Shown here in pieces: positions 1,813-56,020 of a stretch of DNA of 64,000 nt. The stretch covers positions 186,001 through 250,000 of the forward strand of contig NZ_AP025019.1 of the NCBI RefSeq assembly GCF_019977735.1, read 5' to 3'. The position numbers and the translations under genes are program-made. The notes below the pieces were generated by a model. It saw nothing but the letters and a program-made list of their open reading frames with translations. It was not told the DNA's origin and made no database searches. Positions within the stretch are counted from its first letter, which is position 1, and every line of letters begins with the position of its first letter. The stretch comes from Calothrix sp. PCC 7716 (GTDB lineage Bacteria; Cyanobacteriota; Cyanobacteriia; Cyanobacteriales; Nostocaceae).

Positions 1813-4245
1813 ATGTTGCAGGTTTTTACACTTATCTCGGTTTCGTGTCAAAGTATTGCTGAATATGATGAATCAAATGTACTCGATGTAAAAACAGTTC
1901 AACGCTTCTTCAAAGGAGAGCCTATTGATGAAGAAAATGCCCTTACAATTTTCAAAGCGCTGGGTGTAGATGCATCACTAGGGGTTGATTATGAAGTAAG
2001 TCCTACAGACAACGACAAAAAAGGACAGTTAAGTAACGACCCATACCAAGAAACTACTGACTCTCAATCGGCGCCACAAAACAAGTCATCAAATGAAACT
2101 ATTAATATCGATGAACTAGTACGAACTGCACGCGATAAAATTGGTGCCTACATTAATGAACGTTGCGGTACTATGCGTGTACTAGGTATGGCACGCCCAA
2201 TGAAATTGGATGATATTTACACCAGTGTCAATATTTTGGAGAAAATTACCAAATTTGAATGGTCATCACCAGATGAACTTTTGCAAAACGCTAATAATGA
2301 ATATTCTGATCGATTAAGTTTAGGGAAGGTACGTGAAGAAAAAGTACTAGGTAAGACAGCGGTAACACAACACTCCAAGTTGATGATTTTGGGTAAACCT
2401 GGCGCCGGGAAAACAACGTTTCTCAAACATATAGCGATACAGTGTATCAATGGTAACTTTGAACCAAGGCGTATTCCGTTATTTATCACCCTCAAAGATT
2501 TTGCGGAAGCGAATAATCAACCATTATTATTGGAATATTTAACTCAATTATTCGACTCTGAACTTATAAACTTGCAAGCAGTCAAACAATTAATCGAACA
2601 AGGTAAATTAATTATACTATTCGATGGCTTAGATGAAGTAAATAAACTAGACAATATACGAATTGTAAAGCAAATTGAAAATTTTACAATCAAATATAAT
2701 AAAAATCAATTTATAATTACTTGTCGAATTGCAGCGTGCGAGTATATTTTTGAAAACTTTACTGATGTCGAAATTACTGATTTTGATGAAAAACAAATCG
2801 AAACATTCGTAAATAAATGGTTCGATTCTAAAAATGATACTAGTAGAGCAAAAGAATTTATTGATGAATTGGAAAGAAACAAACCTATTAAAGAGCTAGC
2901 AACTACTCCAATATTATTAACATTATTATGCTTGGTATTTGAAGAAAAAGGTACTTTCCCGCAAAATCGCGCTAAATTATACGAAGATGGTTTGGATGCA
3001 TTGCTTGAGAAGTGGGATACTACCCGTTATATTGAGCGTGACCAGCTACCATACAAAAATCTATCATTAAAACAAAGAAAAGATTTACTGAGCCAAATTG
3101 CTTACCCAACATTCAATAGTAGTAAATACTTCTTCAAACCAGAAGATGTTGAAGAATATATAATACAATATTATAATTCACTGAATATTAAAGATGACAT
3201 CGATACGAAGAAAATATTGGAATCAATCGAAGCTCAACATGGTTTGCTTATTGAACGTGCGCGCGGTATTTATTCATTTTCACATTTGACATTTCATGAG
3301 TATTTTACGGCAAGGAATATTGCTACAAGTACAACTGATAATAAGCTTTTACTTCAATTATCTACCCATATTAATGAAAGACGCTGGGAAGAAGTTTTTC
3401 TTTTAATCGCAGGATTAATGCGTGATGGAACTGACCAATTACTACTTTTGATGGAAAAAGAGGCGCATTCTTATATTAATACTCCTAAATTACAAGCGCT
3501 ATTACGTTGGGCACATGAGGAAACTGCTGGTTCTGCGGGTAATATTAAACCTTACGGTAAACGTGCATTAGCTATTGCCTATGCCGAAGCCAATGCCTAC
3601 GCCAACATCATCACCAACGCCAACGCTATCACCAACACCATTGCCAAAACAGACGCCATCGCCATCACCCACGCCGCCAACGCTATTACCTACGCCATTG
3701 GCATCGCCTTCGCCAAAACCGATGCCATCACCTTTGCCAAAGCCATCACCTTTGCCAAAGCTAACACCTTCGTCAACGCCAAAGCCATCACCTTTGCCAA
3801 AGCCAACACCTTCGCCTTCGCCAACGCCGATGCCATCACCTTTGCCAAAGCCATCACCTTCGCCTTCGCCGACACCATCGCCTTCGCCAACACCGATGCC
3901 ATCAAGAAATTTATCAAATGCGCTCAAGACCTAGAAAATCTCAAAATATTTAAAAACATAGACTTGACCGGACTAATTGCCCAAATGGAAGCACTACTGA
4001 CTCAAATTCCTAATGATGAACAGCCAGAGTCTGTGCATAAGTCATTTGCTAAATGCCTCATTGAGACATTGCTTCATGCTTTCAACCTTACCCCAGAAAT
4101 GGTTAATTTATCTGAAAAAGAAATGAAAGCACTAGATAATTACCTCTATGTCAATAGCTTCATCATTGAATGTTTTGATGCATCGGTAAAGGTGGCGCCC
4201 TCTACTTGGCAAGGTATTGAAGACAGAATGTTGAAGATTGATTAG
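1813..4245 (+). CDS. NACHT-domain NTPase (STAND/NLR-like) with alanine-alternating repeat region
   Basis: 810 aa. Residues about 14-55 look like a short N-terminal HTH (TVQRFFKG, then IFKALGVD) as in many cyanobacterial NACHT proteins; its first helix seems missing, so the N-terminus may be shortened. Walker A is GKPGAGKT (194-201) and Walker B ILFDGLDE (268-275, the NACHT DGLDE form). Sensor and winged-helix segments follow to about 550. Residues 591-698 are a low-complexity tract of alternating Ala and Asn/Thr/Phe (ITFAKA type), then a helical C-terminal domain of about 110 aa. Bacterial NACHT proteins include phage-defence NLR relatives. A hairpin overlaps the stop codon. Family call firm; the antiviral role is inferred from family. 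Confidence 0.88.
3583..3905 (+). repeat. Degenerate in-frame tandem repeat inside the NACHT gene
   Basis: Imperfect units of 6, 12 and 18 bases built on GCCATCACCTTTGCCAAA, encoding ITFAKA-like units. The segment is far richer in C than the rest of the gene, and this strand asymmetry leaves long open frames in other phases. Length should vary between strains by slippage. Confidence 0.8.
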
Positions 4246-21083: not shown

Positions 21084-21180
21084 CTTTGGTGAGTATAGGT
21101 GTTTTACCTCTCCTATTTTACTGCTTGATAGGAAAACGGCGCCTGAACTTTTGAAACCATAACTTTAAATGGCGCCGATT

Positions 21181-21603
21181 TTAAACTACCCCATTGACAT
21201 TCAAAAACTTTGCAATCTGTTGGGATGCCAACGTAAAAGCTTCCTGCAATTCTCTACTATTGGCGCCCCAGAATATAGCTTGTTTTCCTCTTACATCTTC
21301 CACTGGTTGCTCAAATAAAACTGGACTATTTAATTGATACGCCCAATTACCATCAGTACCTGTACAATCAGTGATTTGTACGGCGCCGATAATTGCCCCT
21401 CGCTTTACCCCACTTTTATCGATATTGTAAGTTATAAAATATTCATCACTTGCCTTTGACTGAGACGCATGTATTAATACCCAGCCTCTACGCTTGGTCG
21501 GTTGCGTTCGATACTCCTCTGTTTTCAAGCCAAGACAGATTGCATAAGCAAATGGTGCGTGGATACTGATAGCTTTTAAATTAGTTGGGTAGTTGATTGG
21601 CAT
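21181..21603 (-). CDS. ASCH/PUA-like domain protein
   Basis: 140 aa. LKAISIHAPFAYAICLGLK with EEYRT, followed by RRGWVLIHAS and RGAIIGAVQITDC, is the ASCH beta-barrel pattern: the G-K/E-R segment, strand, then a hydrophobic strand with acidic end. The family binds RNA or modified nucleotides. A scrap matching its C-terminus lies at 38014-38085. Start at the ATG giving MPINYPTNLKAIS is the only good one. Confidence 0.75.
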   Translation of the reverse strand: MPINYPTNLKAISIHAPFAYAICLGLKTEEYRTQPTKRRGWVLIHASQSKASDEYFITYNIDKSGVKRGAIIGAVQITDCTGTDGNWAYQLNSPVLFEQPVEDVRGKQAIFWGANSRELQEAFTLASQQIAKFLNVNGVV

Positions 21604-22597: not shown

Positions 22598-24037
22598 ATG
22601 TATAACTCGGCTACAAGCGCGCTGATTGGTAAAACGCTACGTTCCAGATATAAAGTTATTCAAAAATTGGGTAGTGGGGGTTTTGGCGATACCTACCTAG
22701 CTCAAGATTTAGATTTGCCGTTCAAACCTTATTGTGTCGTCAAGCATCTCTCACCAAAAGGCGCCAGACAAGAACATTTAGTGACTGCTAAAAGATTATT
22801 TAATTCCGAAGCAGAAGTTCTTTACCGTTTGGGAAAGCATAATCAAATACCTTGTTTATATGCCCACTTCTGTGAGGATGACGAATTTTACCTTGTGCAG
22901 GAATTTATCGATGGGCATGATTTGAGTGAAGAAATTACACCAGGTCAAGTTAAGAGTGAAGCAGAAACAATTGAACTGTTGCAATCAATACTATCAATTC
23001 TAATATTTGTTCATCAGCAAGGGGTTATCCATCGGGATATTAAACCGCAGAATATAATACGGCGGAAACAGGATGGGAAATTAGTGCTAATTGATTTCGG
23101 CGCCGTAAAAAACATTAGTACTCAAGGAGTTGCAATAAGCTCCACTATTGCAATCGGAACTCCTGGCTATATGGCGCCGGAACAAGTGAGCGGACACCCT
23201 AAATTATGCAGCGATATTTATGCTGTAGGAATGATTGGTATTCAAGCTCTTACTGGTTTAACACCAAACTCATTATTAAAAAACTATGATACGTTGGAAG
23301 TAATTTGGCATAACAAAGTACGAGGGTGCAATAAGCTTAAATATATTTTGGATAAGATGGTAGCATATCATTTTAATCAGCGTTACCAAAATACATCTGT
23401 TGTATTAGAGGCACTTTCGACGCTTCAAGCAGAGCAATCACGAACACAACCTATAACTGTAAATTTATTAGCGGCGCCAACACAGCAGGTAATAGTAACA
23501 CAAAATCTAGATGCCACAACTTCATTAGTAGTGATACCCAAAGCTGGCGCGACTTTACAACAAACAAAAGAATTTGAATTGACTTCTGAAAAAGTAATTA
23601 ATTATGCTCCCTTACGTGACTTCCTGAAAGCAGGCTTGTTAAAAGAAGCTGATAGAGAAACAACTAAAGTTATGCTTCAAGCGTCTGGTCGAGAGTCTAA
23701 AAGCTGGTTACGGGTAGAAGATATAGAAAAATTTCCTTGTCACGATTTATGTACAGTTAATAGTCTTTGGGTTACTCATACTAATGGACGTTTTGGTTTT
23801 AGCATTCAAAAGCAGCTATTTCAAAGTAATGGTGGTACAAAAGAGTACGACCCCAAAGTTTGGGAAGCTTTTGGCAAGCAGGTAGGTTGGTTTCAAGAAG
23901 GAAAGTGGTTAAGCAATCGCAATGTAAACTTTGACTATGATGCTCCTATGGGATGCCTTCCCACGTTTTTAGGAGGCGCCTGGGGATTTAGAGTAGGAAC
24001 CGGAGGTAGTTATCTTCTCACGCGCGCGGACTTGTAA
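22598..24037 (+). CDS. Serine/threonine protein kinase with C-terminal GUN4 domain
   Basis: 479 aa. Kinase domain about 18-285: Gly loop LGSGGFGDTY, K49 in CVVKH, catalytic loop HRDIKPQN with D147, DFG 166-168, and GTPGYMAPEQ in the activation segment. A linker of about 50 residues leads to a GUN4 domain (about 339-475) with NYAPLRDFLKAG, WLRVEDIEKFPC and DYDAPMGCLPTFLGGAWG. GUN4 binds porphyrins and assists Mg-chelatase; kinase-GUN4 fusions are a cyanobacterial design, so this protein may couple tetrapyrrole level to phosphorylation. No membrane segment. All key kinase residues are present. Confidence 0.93.
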   Translation: MYNSATSALIGKTLRSRYKVIQKLGSGGFGDTYLAQDLDLPFKPYCVVKHLSPKGARQEHLVTAKRLFNSEAEVLYRLGKHNQIPCLYAHFCEDDEFYLVQEFIDGHDLSEEITPGQVKSEAETIELLQSILSILIFVHQQGVIHRDIKPQNIIRRKQDGKLVLIDFGAVKNISTQGVAISSTIAIGTPGYMAPEQVSGHPKLCSDIYAVGMIGIQALTGLTPNSLLKNYDTLEVIWHNKVRGCNKLKYILDKMVAYHFNQRYQNTSVVLEALSTLQAEQSRTQPITVNLLAAPTQQVIVTQNLDATTSLVVIPKAGATLQQTKEFELTSEKVINYAPLRDFLKAGLLKEADRETTKVMLQASGRESKSWLRVEDIEKFPCHDLCTVNSLWVTHTNGRFGFSIQKQLFQSNGGTKEYDPKVWEAFGKQVGWFQEGKWLSNRNVNFDYDAPMGCLPTFLGGAWGFRVGTGGSYLLTRADL

Positions 24038-31435: not shown

Positions 31436-31693
31436 TTGAGTGTTTATCAAAGATACTTTATGACCCGCACGCTGAAAATCGGTACTGGCGCCAAAGCTTG
31501 CCTTCATGCCAAATGTGTTGTTGTAGATGAAGAACGGTTATTTGTAACTTCCGCAAATTTTACCGAAGCTGCACATGAGCGTAATATAGAGGCTGGTGTA
31601 CTTATTGCTGATACTGTTGCAGCTAAGGCAATGCGCGCACAGTTTGAGACGTTGGTTACTAGGGGAGTGTTGCGAAAGGCACCGGGGATATAA
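31436..31693 (+). pseudogene. C-terminal relic of a DrmC-like PLD protein
   Basis: The frame carries CLHAKCVVVDEERLFVTSAN followed by FTEAAHERNIEAGVLI: the H-x-K-x(4)-D and S-x-N pieces of a PLD site, in the wording I associate with DrmC of DISARM. Only the last HKD half (about 75 residues) survives; DrmC is normally over 200. DrmA and DrmB were not found here. Confidence 0.7.
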
Positions 31694-36778: not shown

Positions 36779-36908
36779 TAGTAAACTATTATTTGGTAAA
36801 TTTATAGCTTTTAAGACATTACGGGTGTCATTCAAACAATGCCGGATGCTTCTTCACGAAAACAAGTTTTTTTTAATTGCATAACAGGCGCCCATTTAAC
36901 TCTCACCA

Positions 36909-37115
36909 TTATCTCTGATAGGAGTAATTATTTTTGATGTACGCATGAAAATACTTGCCATGTGACGAGGCGCTCATCAAACCTTTGTAAACAGATAGTG
37001 GAACACAGCTATATTGATATACACCCCCACTATAAAATCTAATTTCAAGCGTGCGTGTTACTTCGTCATAGCCCACGCTTTCCAAATCACTTGAAGTTAC
37101 TAATGTTCGTATCAT
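36909..37115 (-). CDS. KTSC-domain protein
   Basis: 68 aa. [31 protein letters not shown], then [20 protein letters not shown], is the KTSC domain first noted at the C-terminus of lysyl-tRNA synthetase-like proteins; stand-alone copies of this size are common on bacterial mobile DNA. A frameshifted copy lies at 39948-40107. Function not established. Confidence 0.85.
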
Positions 37116-37319
37116 ATTTCGTTACAGACAAGTAAAACTGATGTATTATACATTAGTTTCACAAGTAAACACCAAAATTATGAGCGCGCAGGCACCAACG
37201 TTTATTAACATCCAGATACTTATTCCTTCCAAATGGAAATAAAAGAGCAAGTTTGTAATCGGCGCTCACACTAAACAGCAGGTGCCATTAACTTGACAAA
37301 TTAAAACTACGGGACAAAT

Positions 37320-37366
37320 CTAAGTAATACTACTTAGTTGACATAAAAGTATTAATATATACTAAT
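37320..37366 (+). promoter_or_regulatory. Promoter with palindromic operator before the gene at 37406
   Basis: TTGACA at 37338-37343, with a -10 candidate TACTAA/ACTAAT at 37360-37366 (spacing 16-17). The palindrome CTAAGTA-ATAC-TACTTAG (37320-37337) abuts the -35 box and could bind a regulator. Confidence 0.45.
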
Positions 37367-37405
37367 GCTGCGTTATAATTGAGGCGACGTTTTTAACTAC
37401 TTTAT

Positions 37406-37840
37406 ATGTATATCGATAGAAGGGCTGTTGCTTTAATTTTAAAAGTTAAAATAGGTAATATTAGAAAAGTAAATAAGATAGAAGAAAATATTTGTGTTCA
37501 ATTATGGGATTCAAAAGAGAAGGTAACTATTTCTGTCCAAGAATATAAACAATTTATTGCTGAACTTAAAGCAAATCCAAAATTAGCAGTATCCATTTCT
37601 CCTCAAGAAGGTGCTGCTACACCAAATAATACAAGTACGCAGAGAACAATCGGTATAATACTTATAATAATTGGGGCAATTATTGGTATTAATGGTTGTA
37701 CAATGGATACTACAGTATCAACAAGCTTTGGAAGTGTTAATAATATAGGGTTGCTAAGTGAAAAGAATAATCGTATACAAACGGGTGGAATGATTTTTCT
37801 TGGCGGAGTATTACTTTATGCCTTAGACAAGAGACAGTAA
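37406..37840 (+). CDS. Small membrane protein
   Basis: 144 aa. The soluble first half (RAVALILKVKIGNIRKVNKI) is a small beta domain. Hydrophobic helices follow near 80-97 (IGIILIIIGAIIGINGC) and 126-140. The short loop between is probably outside. Family not recognised. Confidence 0.6.
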   Translation: MYIDRRAVALILKVKIGNIRKVNKIEENICVQLWDSKEKVTISVQEYKQFIAELKANPKLAVSISPQEGAATPNNTSTQRTIGIILIIIGAIIGINGCTMDTTVSTSFGSVNNIGLLSEKNNRIQTGGMIFLGGVLLYALDKRQ

Positions 37841-37940
37841 TATTACAAATTTTTAATGCATCTATTACAGCTTTACTTATACTATGCGTGAAGGTGCAGG
37901 CTTAAGCTATACCTTAATTAATTTAAACAAGGTGCCGATA

Positions 37941-37980
37941 TTTATAAGTACTTAGATATTTAAACATTTAGGTACTTGAT
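37941..37980. repeat. Dispersed TAAATACTTA-type repeat, copy 2
   Basis: TATAAGTACTTAGATATTTA followed by a GGTACTTGAT half-site; shares the AAGTACTTAGATATTTAAA core with 48531-48560. Confidence 0.65.
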
Positions 37981-38013
37981 AACAGGCGCCGCTTTTAAGG
38001 ACAGGTGCCTATT

Positions 38014-38085
38014 TTAAGATAGCTACTTTGCATTTAAAAACTTTGCAACCTGTTGAGATATCAAAGTAAAACCTTCTTACAAGCA
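38014..38085 (-). pseudogene. Scrap of the ASCH gene C-terminus
   Basis: AAAAACTTTGCAACCTGTTG and flanks on the plus strand match 21187-21245 (AAAAACTTTGCAATCTGTTG), the last codons of the ASCH gene, 17 kb away. Frame is broken. Confidence 0.65.
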
Positions 38086-38162
38086 TTGTTGGATACAAAA
38101 ATTTTAATCTATTACCTTGCCAATCTGTGGTGTTGATGGTTATGCTTAAAAAGCCTGTATAA

Positions 38163-38315
38163 ATGTGTACAGGGAATGTTATTCAATTTGATAAAGATAG
38201 CAAGGCGCAGTATGCGTTGAGAAATCTGGATCAGAAGCAATACCTCTACATTGTAATTCACTTTACGGGCGCCTCTAAGGAGTATCCTGAGAAGCGGTTT
38301 GTTAACGTGCGCTAA
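38163..38315 (+). CDS. Small protein or gene remnant, 50 aa
   Basis: ATG 38163 to TAA 38315: MCTGNVIQFDKDSKAQYALR, then QYLYIVIHFTGASKEYPEKR. It looks like a folded beta-rich peptide rather than random sequence. No ribosome site is clear, so it may be the tail of a lost gene. It ends 227 bases before the reverse transcriptase and may partly overlap the RNA leader. Confidence 0.4.
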   Translation: MCTGNVIQFDKDSKAQYALRNLDQKQYLYIVIHFTGASKEYPEKRFVNVR

Positions 38316-38498
38316 AGGTATTGGGTATAAAAGCTCAAAACGATGCCGTCAGTCTTACCTTTAGCTTTGTGAAATAACAACTTATTTATAAAGCTATTAG
38401 CGGAGCAGCATTTTATTGCTCTGCTTATGCTTTAGTTTTGAATTTATACTTATATATTCAACTATACAAATTATGTCAGATATATCTGAAACTTTTTT
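38316..38498 (+). ncRNA. Candidate structured RNA upstream of the reverse transcriptase
   Basis: At 38389-38434 an outer stem TAAAGC/GCTTTA encloses an inner 8-pair stem GCGGAGCA/TGCTCTGC with a 9-base loop; all 14 pairs form, with one G-U. A further AAAGCT/AGCTTT pairing lies at about 38335-38374. A hairpin and T6 run end the segment at 38498, leaving a short gap to the RT start. DRT2 systems are known to need a non-coding RNA directly upstream as template. The boundaries here are guesses. Confidence 0.5.
38476..38498 (+). terminator. Terminator-like hairpin before the reverse transcriptase
   Basis: TCAGA-TATA-TCTGA followed by AAC and six T. It would end a leader RNA 44 bases before the RT start codon. 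Confidence 0.5.
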
Positions 38499-38542
38499 CT
38501 AATCATTTTTATTATTAAAAATTATAATTTTGTTTTAAAGCT

Positions 38543-39808
38543 ATGACGTGTAATTCCGATAATAATTTAGAAAAATGGTTAAGAACTCGTGGTTATATTC
38601 ATTTTGATCATAAGAGGTCTTTAAACTTTGCGAAGAAGTATGTTCAAAATTTACAAAACATAGAAAAGCATTCTTTCTTACCATTTTTGAAATATATCAA
38701 AAAAAAAGATAGCTATTGTGCGAAAGAAAATAAAACAAACTCAAAACCAAGACCAATAATGTATGCTAGTCACTTAGACTCTCACATTTACTCTTGGTAC
38801 TCGCATCAACTTAGTCAACATTATGAAAAATTTATTCAAAACAATGGCATCGCTGAATGTGTTTTAGCTTATAGAAGTTTAGGAAAATGTAATATTAATT
38901 TTTCTAAAGAAGTATTCGATGAGATTGTTCGTAAAGCACCTTGTACTGTACTTACTTTTGATATATCTAAATTTTTTGACAATATTGATCATAAAATCTT
39001 GAAACAAGCTTGGTGCAACATTCTTGGAGTTACAGAATTACCCTTAGACCACTATAAAGTTTATAAATCCATTACTAAGTATTCATACGTGAATTTAGAT
39101 GCTGTTTTCAAAGAGTTACAAATAGATAGAGAACAGCTAAAAGAAAAGAAACGTATTTGTTCGTCCCAAGAATTTCGAGAGCGTGTGAGAGGAAAAGGAC
39201 TAGTTCAAACGAATAAACTAAATTATGGTATTCCACAAGGCTCTCCAATTAGCGCTGTGTTCTCTAATATTTTTCTTATTCACTTTGATGAGCTAATGCA
39301 AAAACATGCAAATCAAATAAATGGTGTATATAGAAGATATTGTGACGATATTCTTTGGATATGTCCTAACGACGATGTAGAAATTATTAAAAGTTTAGTA
39401 ATTAAAGAAATATACACAATGGGAGGACAACTGACTATCAATGATAAAAAAACAGAAATTAGTGTATTTAAGATAGATAATGACAAATTGATAGGAACAC
39501 CTGCTTTACAATACCTAGGTTTTACGTTTGATGGTCAACGTCGCTTAATACGCTCTCAAACAGTTGGTAGATATTGTAGAAGAATGAAAACAGCAGTTAG
39601 ATTTGCAGGAGTAGCAGCCTTAAATGCAGGATATTCACAACTTTATCGCAAATCTATCTATAGAAAATATAGCCACTTAGGTAATAACAATTTTATTAGA
39701 TATGCTAATAGGTCTGCCGAAATTATGGCATCGAAAGAGATTCGTCGCCAGATACGCCGTCATTGGAAAAATCTGCACAAGGAAATCGGAAGAATAAATT
39801 TAAAGTAG
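38543..39808 (+). CDS. drt2: Stand-alone reverse transcriptase, DRT2 (UG2) type
   Basis: 421 aa. N-terminal RGYIHFD near 16-22, and RPIMYASHLDSHIYSWYS at 70-87, are phrases I associate with Drt2. Motif A is LTFDISKFFDNIDH with D140, motif B GIPQGSP 229-235, and motif C YCDD 266-269. The C-terminal 90 residues are a basic helical thumb. There is no maturase, integrase or group II intron structure. DRT2 systems make repetitive cDNA from an upstream RNA, which after infection yields a long translated product that stops growth. The structured leader fits that design. RT certain; DRT2 assignment likely but not searched. Confidence 0.8.
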   Translation: MTCNSDNNLEKWLRTRGYIHFDHKRSLNFAKKYVQNLQNIEKHSFLPFLKYIKKKDSYCAKENKTNSKPRPIMYASHLDSHIYSWYSHQLSQHYEKFIQNNGIAECVLAYRSLGKCNINFSKEVFDEIVRKAPCTVLTFDISKFFDNIDHKILKQAWCNILGVTELPLDHYKVYKSITKYSYVNLDAVFKELQIDREQLKEKKRICSSQEFRERVRGKGLVQTNKLNYGIPQGSPISAVFSNIFLIHFDELMQKHANQINGVYRRYCDDILWICPNDDVEIIKSLVIKEIYTMGGQLTINDKKTEISVFKIDNDKLIGTPALQYLGFTFDGQRRLIRSQTVGRYCRRMKTAVRFAGVAALNAGYSQLYRKSIYRKYSHLGNNNFIRYANRSAEIMASKEIRRQIRRHWKNLHKEIGRINLK

Positions 39809-39947
39809 AATAGATTTCAATTACTAATTCGACAACAAACCTGTTTTATTATCTCATTTCACTACAGGCGCCCACTATATACAGATACACCTCTCCAATT
39901 GACAATACACACGCACGCTTGCACAGGCGCCCATCTCAACCTCAACT

Positions 39948-40107
39948 TATTCTTTGACAGGAGTAATTATTCTTCGTGTGACAAGGCGCCCATCAATCCT
40001 TTGTAAACAGATAGCGGCACCACTATGAAACTTAATTTCATGCGCGCGAGTTGCTTCGTCATAGCCCACGCTTTCCAAATCCTTGAGGTTACTGGTGTTC
40101 GTATCAT
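39948..40107 (-). pseudogene. Frameshifted copy of the KTSC gene and its flanks
   Basis: Bases 39926-40190 match 36889-37200, including the start codon region and the upstream GAGCGCGC site. The copy has a one-base loss near codon 9 and a missing block of about 30 bases in the middle, so no KTSC protein is made. Confidence 0.8.
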
Positions 40108-40355
40108 ATTTGACCACAGACAAGTGAAACTGATGTGTAATAAATTAGTTTCACTGTAAATATATAAAAATTATGAGCGCGCTGGCGCCAATGTTATCTA
40201 GTCGAAAGAAGAGGTAAGTTTGTAATCGGCGCCTATACCCATATATATAGATACCTATAAACGCACCACCCACCACAACCACGAAGCAGAGCGCCTTCTT
40301 CATAACGAATATCTTGACCAGGCGCCCTTTCTAAAACCAAGCTGTTCTATTTGGA

Positions 40356-40475
40356 TAGGCGCCTACGAAGCTCAAAATATTAGAGTATTTGTACTGTTAA
40401 AATTACGTTAAGGCTTCAATTGCTATGTTTCATAACAGGGCACCTATATATAGATACGTTCTCCATTTTCCAAGA
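40356..40475. repeat. About 120-bp dispersed repeat, copy B
   Basis: Matches copy A at 34294-34420 with roughly 80 percent identity. Neighbouring bases 39860-40350 hold more short CCTATATATAGATA-type pieces and many GGCGCC sites, and no gene. Confidence 0.7.
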
Positions 40476-40549
40476 CAGGCGCCACTACATATAAATCATT
40501 AGTACTAGCACAGGCGCCGTTTCCATATTGGGAAAACCATATGCTGCAC

Positions 40550-40846
40550 TCATGGTTGTTCCAAAATATCCTTAGTAACCAAGCAACCAACGAACAACAG
40601 CATCAAAAACTGTGTAAACTCAAAATCCACACCCAGGCGCCAGCCTTGAAATATCAGTATAAAACCGTTTAATAACAGTGCAGATGCTCCAATTACCAAT
40701 TGCGCTATATCTAAAGTAGAGGCAGTGCGCTGATTAAACTTGTTCCAGAGTATCAGATAAGCGAGTCCGGCAATTACATAAATAATGCCTATACCACTGG
40801 CGCCTGTATTCCCCGGAACAACATTGACTTGAGAGAAAATAATCAT
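40550..40846 (-). CDS. Ycf66-like membrane protein, short form
   Basis: 98 aa from ATG 40846 (MIIFSQVNVVPGNTG); the ATG nine codons upstream is an alternative. Three hydrophobic stretches. LLNGFILIFQGWRLGVDFEF followed by TQFLM is the signature of the Ycf66 family, found in cyanobacteria and plastids. Full-length homologues are longer with a soluble tail; this copy ends right after the last helix. Function of the family is unknown. Confidence 0.7.
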   Translation of the reverse strand: MIIFSQVNVVPGNTGASGIGIIYVIAGLAYLILWNKFNQRTASTLDIAQLVIGASALLLNGFILIFQGWRLGVDFEFTQFLMLLFVGCLVTKDILEQP

Positions 40847-41094
40847 ACAATGTCTCGAATGTACGCGAGTCATATATATAGTTCCCTGTCCCAGACGTGT
40901 AGCATCAATATGTATAGGCGCCGTTTGACAAACTCGAACTACCGAGGCGAGCTAATCTACAAACAATACTCTTAACTATTGACCACGCATTAAAGGATTG
41001 AGTGTTGATTTTGTAATACTGGCGCCACAATTAATTAGCAATCAGTGAATTGGCACCGACGTTCATAAATCGGTGTCTTTACATGGCGCCTGGT

Positions 41095-41862: not shown

Positions 41863-42507
41863 ATGGTACAATTTTATAACTCTACTACTAAACGTGAGCA
41901 AGATATTCAAGCATTTCTAAAAATCATTGGTATCTCAGATTTAAATAAAGAACTAATCGAAATAAGTTTAATGCATCCGTCATACTTACATGAGTTAACT
42001 ATAGATAGAGAGAAAAAAAAATTACAAGAAAAAGAGTACAGGCGTCTAGCTCACCTGGGAGATGCCATAATTGGCGCCATTGTTACAGATTATTTATATG
42101 AACAATATCCAGATTTAGCAGAGGGTGAACTAACTCAACTTAAACAACAACTGGTAAATAAAGTAAAATTATCTAAGTTCGCTTATCAAATAAACTTACA
42201 TCAATACTGCTTATTAGGTAAAAGTTTAAAAGGAAGTATTTTAAATAAGCAAGGAAAGCTTTTTTCAGAAATGTTTGAAGCTGTATTTGGTGCTATTTAT
42301 TTAGGGTTAAAGCGTGACTTTTCTTTTTCTAAGTCATGGTTGATTGAAAACTTGCTTGCAAGTACATTGGATAAGGTTATTGATTTAGATGAAACAGATG
42401 ATGAATATGAAGATTACGATTATGTTTTAACTACTGGAGAATACCTAGACCCGATTAGATTAAAAGACTTTCCTGATTATGGATGGGCACCGGGTGTTGA
42501 TGACTAA
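41863..42507 (+). CDS. RNase III-domain protein with altered active site, no dsRBD
   Basis: 214 aa. The signature RRLAHLGDAIIGAIVTDYLY (60-79) and LAEGELTQLKQQLVNK align with RNase III, as does SEMFEAVFGAIYL (135-147). In RNase III the signature reads ERLEFLGDA; here the first metal-binding Glu is Ala63 and the later Asp is Glu136, while Asp67 and Glu139 remain. No double-stranded-RNA-binding domain follows, only an acidic tail (DLDETDDEYEDYDYV). It may bind RNA without cutting, or be a mini-III-like variant. Confidence 0.8.
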   Translation: MVQFYNSTTKREQDIQAFLKIIGISDLNKELIEISLMHPSYLHELTIDREKKKLQEKEYRRLAHLGDAIIGAIVTDYLYEQYPDLAEGELTQLKQQLVNKVKLSKFAYQINLHQYCLLGKSLKGSILNKQGKLFSEMFEAVFGAIYLGLKRDFSFSKSWLIENLLASTLDKVIDLDETDDEYEDYDYVLTTGEYLDPIRLKDFPDYGWAPGVDD

Positions 42508-54793: not shown

Positions 54794-56020
54794 ATGCCAA
54801 AAATTTTTACAATCCCGCTGGTCGAGCAGGCATCGCCTACAAAAATGCTCGGTCAGTACGATTATTACTCGCTTGTGGCGCCAGTGGCTACAATGCCTAC
54901 TGACCTGCCAAGCTATCCGAATATACGGGAACCAAACCCAAAAGCTGATGTTTGTAAGGATATAGTTTATACTCTGATCACAGCCCCCGAAAAATTCCTT
55001 CAGTACAATGGTGGGATTGTCATTACAGCAAAATCAGTACGGGCGTACAAAGAGAAAGGTCAATACAAAATAGATATTGAGATACTTGAACCCAGTGAAG
55101 GCTACGATTGTTATGGAATATGTAATGGCGCCCACACCTTAAAAGGAATCGAATTAGCACATAATAAAGGTGTTAAGCCCCAAAATGCTTTCGTTAGATT
55201 AACGATTTATTCAAACTTTAGTGATATAGTTACAGCAAAAGAAATTGCTTTAAAAATAAATACAGTAACCCCAATTGATAAAAGGTCTAAAATTAATGCT
55301 GCTGGCGGTTTCGATGACATCAAAATTATTATAAATAATCTTAAAACTCACGAAGGCAAGTCATTTAGCCATATTGCGTACTACCAAAATCAAGGTGAAG
55401 TTGAGGGCGATAAATATAGGCATTGTTCCATTAACCACACGTTTAAGTTAGTCAATCCACTCGACTACCTAAAGTACAATTACAATATTCCTGGCAAACC
55501 TCATCCCAAATCACTACCTACACTAACCAGTAAAGAATTGGAAAGAATGGAACGATTAATGCTACTTCTACCAGACGCATTTTGGGTTGAAAAACGTTTG
55601 TTTGATGAAATTAATAGAAATTTAAAAAGCCAACAAATAAATGGCATATCATCATTTGCTGGTGTTAGTATGGGTAGAAAAAATGATATTACAAAGTTGA
55701 TAGATGGTTCGATTTATGGATTTAAAGCAATAGAAGCATTATCAACTCCAATTATCGCAGCATATAGGGTAATGCTCCAAGCTAATTATGAGTGGATTTT
55801 ACCCTTTAAAGAATTACGAGAACCGCTATTTAATATACTATGGCGCCGTTATCAAAAAGAATTAAAAGAGTTAAAGATAGCAGGCAACGCTTCAAGTGCT
55901 GCCATACAACGTAATGAAAAATTATGGAACAATCTGTGTGAATTAGCAATCAATTACAAAATTCAATTATTAGAAGGAACCCCAAATCTAATTAATGTCC
56001 CACAACTAGTTTTGAAATAG
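54794..56020 (+). CDS. AIPR-like (abortive infection phage resistance) family protein
   Basis: 408 aa. LQYNGGIVITAKSVRAYKEK (about 75) and YGICNGAHTLKGIELAHNKG (about 114) fit the AIPR signature of an NNGI segment followed by an NG-(Q/H)-T segment; a helical C-terminal half follows. AIPR proteins are linked to phage resistance and restriction-like systems. It heads a block of plasmid- or phage-style genes. A promoter probably lies in the MITE edge or the short gap after it. Confidence 0.7.
   Translation: MPKIFTIPLVEQASPTKMLGQYDYYSLVAPVATMPTDLPSYPNIREPNPKADVCKDIVYTLITAPEKFLQYNGGIVITAKSVRAYKEKGQYKIDIEILEPSEGYDCYGICNGAHTLKGIELAHNKGVKPQNAFVRLTIYSNFSDIVTAKEIALKINTVTPIDKRSKINAAGGFDDIKIIINNLKTHEGKSFSHIAYYQNQGEVEGDKYRHCSINHTFKLVNPLDYLKYNYNIPGKPHPKSLPTLTSKELERMERLMLLLPDAFWVEKRLFDEINRNLKSQQINGISSFAGVSMGRKNDITKLIDGSIYGFKAIEALSTPIIAAYRVMLQANYEWILPFKELREPLFNILWRRYQKELKELKIAGNASSAAIQRNEKLWNNLCELAINYKIQLLEGTPNLINVPQLVLK

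Follow-up and report, generated by a model that had tools for sequence, protein, structure and literature searches.

We identified on a plasmid of Calothrix sp. PCC 7716 what is probably a two-part DRT2 anti-phage system, in which a predicted ncRNA and a reverse transcriptase (RT) would together perform a shorter variant of gene synthesis, with the enzyme jumping by means of 4–8 nt alignment repeats. The locus lies within the 64,000-nt stretch analyzed here (NZ_AP025019.1, positions 186,001–250,000; hereafter “the window”, whose numbering is used throughout). Usable upstream DNA was available for four photosynthetic cyanobacterial loci: the window, its nearest relative on plasmid2 of Calothrix sp. 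NIES-4105 (L001, also recorded as L062; RT 94% identical), and two more distant loci, L207 and L219, with RT identities to the window of 53% and 56%.

The RT gene (38543–39808, + strand) encodes a single protein of 421 aa, in which Pfam at E 0.01 finds RVT_1 only. By sequence, it is a DRT2 (UG2) enzyme, a class that is itself already known: it scores 525.7 bits against NCBIfam NF041746 (cut-off 390) and 532.5 bits against the PADLOC Drt2 model, compared to 76.1 bits for the best non-Drt2 model, and residues 8–415 align with the solved chains of DRT2 from Klebsiella pneumoniae (Wilkinson et al., PMC12039810; Tang et al., PMC11100668; PDB 9c0i, 9lje) at E ~1e-105, i.e., a full-length match. The initial annotation of this DNA had proposed a DRT2-like RT partly from three motifs, all of which are present in the open reading frame (D140 in motif A, GIPQGSP at residues 229–235, YCDD at 266–269), so that the catalytic motifs are intact; the PADLOC, NCBIfam, and structure matches bear this assignment out and place the enzyme inside UG2.

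Directly upstream of the RT, a structured ncRNA with predicted ends could be delineated in all four loci, always with the same order of parts: a handle hairpin, a variable stretch, CGTGCGCT, and a terminal stem. Based on this order and on conservation, we place the predicted DRT2-type ncRNA of the window at 38150–38367 (+ strand, ends estimated), preceded by a promoter-like site, TTGCCA-18-TATGCT, at 38117–38146 (+, 9 of 12 consensus matches). The TTGCCA of this site is kept in L001, and the site is weak when taken alone since eight such sites occur in 38000–38700, compared to a shuffle mean of 3.4. The 5′ handle hairpin CCTGTA/TACAGG (38154–38173, +) occupies a matching place in the four loci, with 6, 6, 6, and 8 pairs in the window, L001, L219, and L207, while the terminal stem domain (38311–38365, +) pairs GCTAAAGGTA at 38311–38320 with TACCTTTAGC at 38356–38365 through 10, 10, 11, and 10 standard pairs in the same loci, including one bulged base in L207. 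Its inner pairs are changed on both sides across the four loci. Arms of both elements were picked by eye; for the terminal stem, MAFFT misplaced the 5′ arm in L207 and L219, and pairs were counted by script from the eye-picked arms. In the three loci folded, the whole RNA was weakly more stable than shuffled sequences (z of −2.04 for the window, −1.37 for L001, and −0.88 for L207), and Rfam returned no match up to E 1 across 37000–41000.

The extent of the conserved unit can be read from the comparison with NIES-4105. When 36884–40240 was compared in three pieces with the NIES-4105 plasmid stretch, a single match was obtained at 38103–39916 (89.8% identity), and no match for the outer pieces 36884–37260 and 39923–40240. 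Homology thus begins at 38103, just ahead of the promoter-like site, and the shared unit therefore consists of promoter, RNA, and RT. Within it, the two Calothrix loci are 94.4% identical in the RT gene, 91.4% in the terminal stem, 90.3% in the handle, and 54.7% in the predicted template (41 of 75 positions).

The initial annotation had instead taken two hairpins closer to the RT as the leader RNA of the system: a two-tier hairpin at 38389–38434 (+), and a second hairpin followed by T6 at 38476–38498 (+). Both exist in the sequence. A terminator scan recovers the inner part of the first (38399–38425, 10 pairs), and the second consists of TCAGATATATCTGA at 38476–38489 with T6 at 38493–38498. 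The stretch 38316–38542 is structured somewhat above chance, since its fold has z = −2.60 and 2 of 200 shuffles were equally stable; in its minimum-energy fold, some outer-tier bases of the first hairpin pair elsewhere. Both hairpins are also kept in L001, the one close orthologue, with pairing-preserving changes and with T6 retained. However, neither was found upstream of the RT in L207 or L219, which both have the handle, the repeats, and the terminal stem, and in which the spacer between terminal stem and RT measures 24 and 23 nt, respectively, compared to 177 nt in the window. We thus consider it extremely unlikely that 38389–38498 is the DRT2 leader RNA, and 38316–38542 was rejected as template RNA because it is absent from L207 and L219. 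Lying between the likely ncRNA and the RT and lacking in the two distant loci, the hairpins are probably not the template RNA; a role within the spacer fits better, and they may represent an attenuator or a processing site. The likely template RNA is 38150–38367, most of which lies 5′ of the start marked in the initial annotation (38316), so that only the 3′ end of the ncRNA fell inside the stretch it had delimited.

The ncRNA of the window contains a predicted 75-nt template unit at 38181–38255 (+; 38180–38254 is an equal alternative), defined by the spacing of two flanking repeats and coinciding with the least conserved stretch. The 5′ copy, GTTATTCAATTT (38178–38189, +), is identical at 10 of 12 positions to the 3′ copy, GTAATTCACTTT (38253–38264, +), and the two share an exact core, ATTCA, at 38181–38185 and 38256–38260. 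To define repeats uniformly, we used the longest exact repeat starting 6–8 nt after the handle with a copy at least 45 nt away, a rule chosen after the loci had been looked at. This yielded ATTCA in the window, TTACTTAT in L001, GTTTAT in L207, and GTTT in L219 (lengths 4–8 nt), with spacings, and hence units, of 75, 75, 57, and 60 nt. A looser repeat listing gave the same result in three loci, while L219 was then led by a 6-nt repeat at a spacing of 35, reflecting a smaller minimum distance. In an ungapped scan of the Calothrix pair, spacing 75 came top (19 of 26 matches; runner-up 119, 17 of 26), whereas spacing 57 was not singled out in L207. Between the two Calothrix loci, the two repeat copies carry matching changes at two sites (TATTCA to TACTTA, and AATTCA to TACTTA), a parallel change which we regard as suggestive only.

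A rolling read of this unit, a check put forward in the initial annotation, gives a stop-free, Neo-like frame on the antisense strand of 38181–38255, with the unit peptide YNVEVLLLIQISQRILRLAIFIKLN; the corresponding peptides are NQSMLFWIRITQHSPRIVIVTKISN in L001, YVMSLFGHLLDTGVAFVIN in L207, and YMCDKFLKPALLFAGKSVVN in L219. In each of the four loci, the unit, with its predicted boundaries, is a multiple of three and the antisense frame is open across the junction. In L001, L207, and L219, the other five frames all contain stops; the window has two further open frames. Dinucleotide shuffling (3000 per locus) put the probability of a unit that is both open and a multiple of three at 0.089 for the window, 0.062 for L207, and 0.130 for L219; the product over these three loci is 7.1e-4, or 2.8e-5 when repeat length under the post hoc rule is added, and both figures are optimistic because the rule was fixed after the loci had been seen. 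Sharing of an open antisense frame by the two Calothrix loci is not rare, being reproduced in 4322 of 20,000 column shuffles. Their peptides are identical at 9 of 25 residues and positive-scoring at 15 of 25, the highest score sum of the six frames. In all four loci, hydropathy exceeded the open-shuffle mean (fraction as high: 0.09, 0.21, 0.09, and 0.09), with another frame scoring higher than the antisense one in L001 and L207.

These observations also have to be weighed against a working DRT2 which makes cDNA, but from other template ends or as an untranslated nucleic-acid product, so that the open frame would be incidental. The 34 template differences between the window and L001 fall evenly over codon positions (12, 10, 12), hence show no sign of purifying selection, a flat pattern that speaks for an incidental frame; the L219 repeat is short, the promoter across the repeat junction (see below) is weak, and TTG is the only start codon near the −10 in the antisense frame of the window. 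Wilkinson et al. further expect quite different ccDNA from other DRT2 systems (PMC12039810). What speaks for a coding unit is the conjunction of length and openness in four of four loci, at 7.1e-4 over three independent ones, and a frame register common to these loci, provided that the L001 junction is placed 8 nt after the handle, as the 8-nt repeat of L001 allows. On balance, an incidental frame appears unlikely, though it merits consideration, and we favor a template that would encode a short Neo-like repeat.

If the unit were copied head to tail, its junctions could also supply a promoter. In the window, a possible −35 (TTGCTA, 38198–38203, − strand) would come to lie 17 nt from a possible −10 (TACAAT, 38250–38255, −) in the concatemer, and the best or tied-best promoter site of the concatemer spans the junction in all four loci. 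The number of shuffles (of 1000) matching the score of this site was 218 for the window (800 for its alternative unit), 30 for L001, 16 for L207, and 512 for L219, i.e., above chance in L001 and L207 only. By comparison, four Klebsiella-type control loci had 12, 12, 12, and 11 matches of 12. At the jump point, where SL2 pairs in Klebsiella DRT2, a possible counterpart in the window is GAAT in the left flank, which could pair with ATTC; pairing is weak or wobble-rich in the other three loci.

Overall, the Calothrix locus resembles Klebsiella DRT2 in its RT, which belongs to the same family over its full length, in its upstream RNA with a 5′ handle hairpin, a poorly conserved central template, and a 3′ terminal stem, and in the antisense stop-free frame of a unit whose length is divisible by three. 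The template is likewise the least conserved part among close Klebsiella homologues (Wilkinson et al., PMC12039810). In contrast, the cyanobacterial unit of 57–75 nt is about half as long as the 111–129 nt of 42 close homologues of Klebsiella DRT2 (PMC12039810), the jump repeats are longer (4–8 nt) than ACA, a 177-nt hairpin-bearing spacer precedes the RT in Calothrix, and its junction promoter is unsure. A covariance model built from six Klebsiella-type 3′ scaffolds was run on three further sister-group loci, of which it recovered two (L095, 29.2 bits; L059, 19.0 bits); at the ncRNA of the window, L001, L207, or L219 it had no match, whether filtered or unfiltered. It was rejected as a proof of homology. 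As judged from these comparisons, the cyanobacterial ncRNA is not of the Klebsiella RNA type, and the initial annotation, which considered that the RNA of a cyanobacterial DRT2 might differ, looks right on this point: its view of the locus holds for the DRT2 class and apparently for the distinct RNA, and probably fails for the hairpins as template RNA.

Units bounded by ACA were rejected for the cyanobacterial loci for want of a fitting pair: ACA pairs in the window gave no open unit with a length divisible by three, and no ACA unit with a junction promoter was found in L001, L207, or L219 (one open 219-nt ACA pair in L001 does not fit). As a control, the same approach was applied to six Klebsiella-type loci. 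The ACA-bounded unit measured 117 nt and its antisense frame was open in four (L093, L096, L097, and L098) and, in a second reading, in L094; the approach failed for L060 (113 nt, no open frame, provisional end). A stricter filter combining ACA and promoter was passed by 2 of 15 loci, L093 and L094. For the DRT2 of a Psychrobacter plasmid (L061), ACA motifs bound a unit of 105 nt (2728–2832) whose antisense frame is open, and which fails the promoter filter. Three DRT2-like RTs under the curated cut-off (L064, L065, and L067; family f42, same phylum) are preceded by ACATTGTCAAG-like and AACATTATTATAC-like stretches that recall the Klebsiella type, and none of their ACA units passes the strict filter.

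Next, we evaluated the distribution of this DRT2 across genomes. Counting the source genome itself, long RT matches (E 1e-20 or better) occurred in 3 of 217 family genomes, and in 2 of 388 for both the order and the class draw. Some RT match was detected in 159 of 386 genomes of the phylum draw, with 1 of 386, the source genome, over the curated cut-off; among 60 relatives, 25 matched the RT and 2 did so over its full length. The families of two distant relatives yielded no new DRT2 (1 of 11 and 1 of 42 genomes, each the already known one), and no genome of the 398 from the phylum of G421 was above the cut-off. A search of viral contigs with the alignment of the cyanobacterial sequences gave 16 stretches, with no relative among them, and an 18-base ncRNA pattern had no occurrence there. 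In the RT tree, the window, L001, L207, L219, and a truncated copy from Mojavia (L002/L206) form a clade of their own (support 100/99), beside a nine-row group (97/94) to which the Klebsiella-type loci belong, with weak support for the fork joining the two (80/77). No upstream RNA was readable for the Mojavia copy, and a DNA search of its genome with the ncRNA gave only short matches (best E 0.011). Beyond one general review (PMC12593503), the literature searched yielded no paper on DRT2 in cyanobacteria, and supplements may list cyanobacterial members.

Such rarity (3 of 217 family genomes) would fit a DRT2 gene that is a decaying plasmid passenger and no longer works, and so would the Mojavia copy, whose homology is lost before residue 77, near a contig end. 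Yet the catalytic motifs are intact, the RT is nearly unchanged in L001, and the handle and terminal stem remain ~90% identical while the template changes, all of which makes a defunct gene very unlikely and a functioning DRT2 system the preferred reading.

The surroundings of the unit hold further repeats and candidate defence genes. Imperfect direct repeats at 36884–37202 and 39923–40195 (76.6% identity over 244 bp and 78.8% over 52 bp), which include a KTSC-domain ORF (36909–37115, −), flank a 2.9-kb segment with the DRT2 unit and an ORF at 37406–37840; no match to the NIES-4105 plasmid stretch was obtained for either repeat copy. A separate 79-bp repeat (75.9% identity) links 38004–38082, just 5′ of the ncRNA promoter, with 21171–21249, 17 kb away. 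Two kb downstream of the RT, 41863–42507 encodes a small RNase III-like protein, which might be a processing enzyme. An 85-aa ORF at 31436–31693 matches the C-terminal third only of DrmC (132.5 bits), the PLD-like protein of DISARM, and appears remnant-like. At 22598–24037, a kinase-GUN4 protein strongly matches PD-T4-6 defence kinase models (384.4 bits), while 1813–4245 and 54794–56020 encode a NACHT-domain ATPase and an AIPR-family protein, two groups often tied to defence. In L219, the ORF adjoining DRT2 (2786–4078) resembles, by eye, a type I restriction specificity subunit.

RT class, clade, order of parts, repeat-bounded template, and open frame were all computed from the cyanobacterial DNA, while each mechanistic step that follows is carried over by inference from Klebsiella DRT2. 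The enzyme would hold the ncRNA in a complex and, upon infection, copy the 75-nt template from an RNA-primed start. On reaching the handle, the end of the cDNA, complementary to the 5′ repeat, would re-anneal to the 3′ repeat and copying would restart, the 4–8 nt repeats taking the place of ACA-1 and ACA-2. Successive restarts would give head-to-tail cDNA. After second-strand synthesis and transcription, this would be translated into a Neo-like protein, repetitive, toxic, and mostly hydrophobic, that arrests the cell, i.e., abortive infection. For Klebsiella, Tang et al. report that defence is abolished when the two ACA motifs are no longer homologous (PMC11100668).

This scheme recalls telomerase RNA, in which a partial repeat lies beside the template where the new DNA end re-anneals, a comparison drawn by Wilkinson et al. 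(PMC12039810), who hold the likeness convergent and offer the alignment-region model as speculation. Cyanobacterial repeats of 4–8 nt are nearer than ACA to the length of the telomerase alignment region, whereas the unit is far longer than in telomerase RNA and would code for protein.

The studies of DRT2 gene synthesis considered here were built on the Klebsiella system and its relatives, in which ACA/ACA serves as jump signal (PMC12039810, PMC11100668). Against this background, the RNA and its short Neo-like unit likely constitute a new variant of DRT2. We also lean, by a modest measure, toward a subtype proper to photosynthetic cyanobacteria, with templates of 57–75 nt, lineage-specific repeats that change together, and Neo units of 19–25 residues evolving far faster than the RT. 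If so, the jump signal would be a replaceable alignment repeat rather than a fixed motif, and the natural repeat swaps between loci would directly test the alignment-region model. Template repetition would be more telomerase-like than in Klebsiella, which could explain the greater difficulty of annotating Neo in divergent DRT2 clades, a difficulty that Tang et al. took to suggest alternative mechanisms (PMC11100668). The Calothrix unit would then be one more gene that exists only after reverse transcription.
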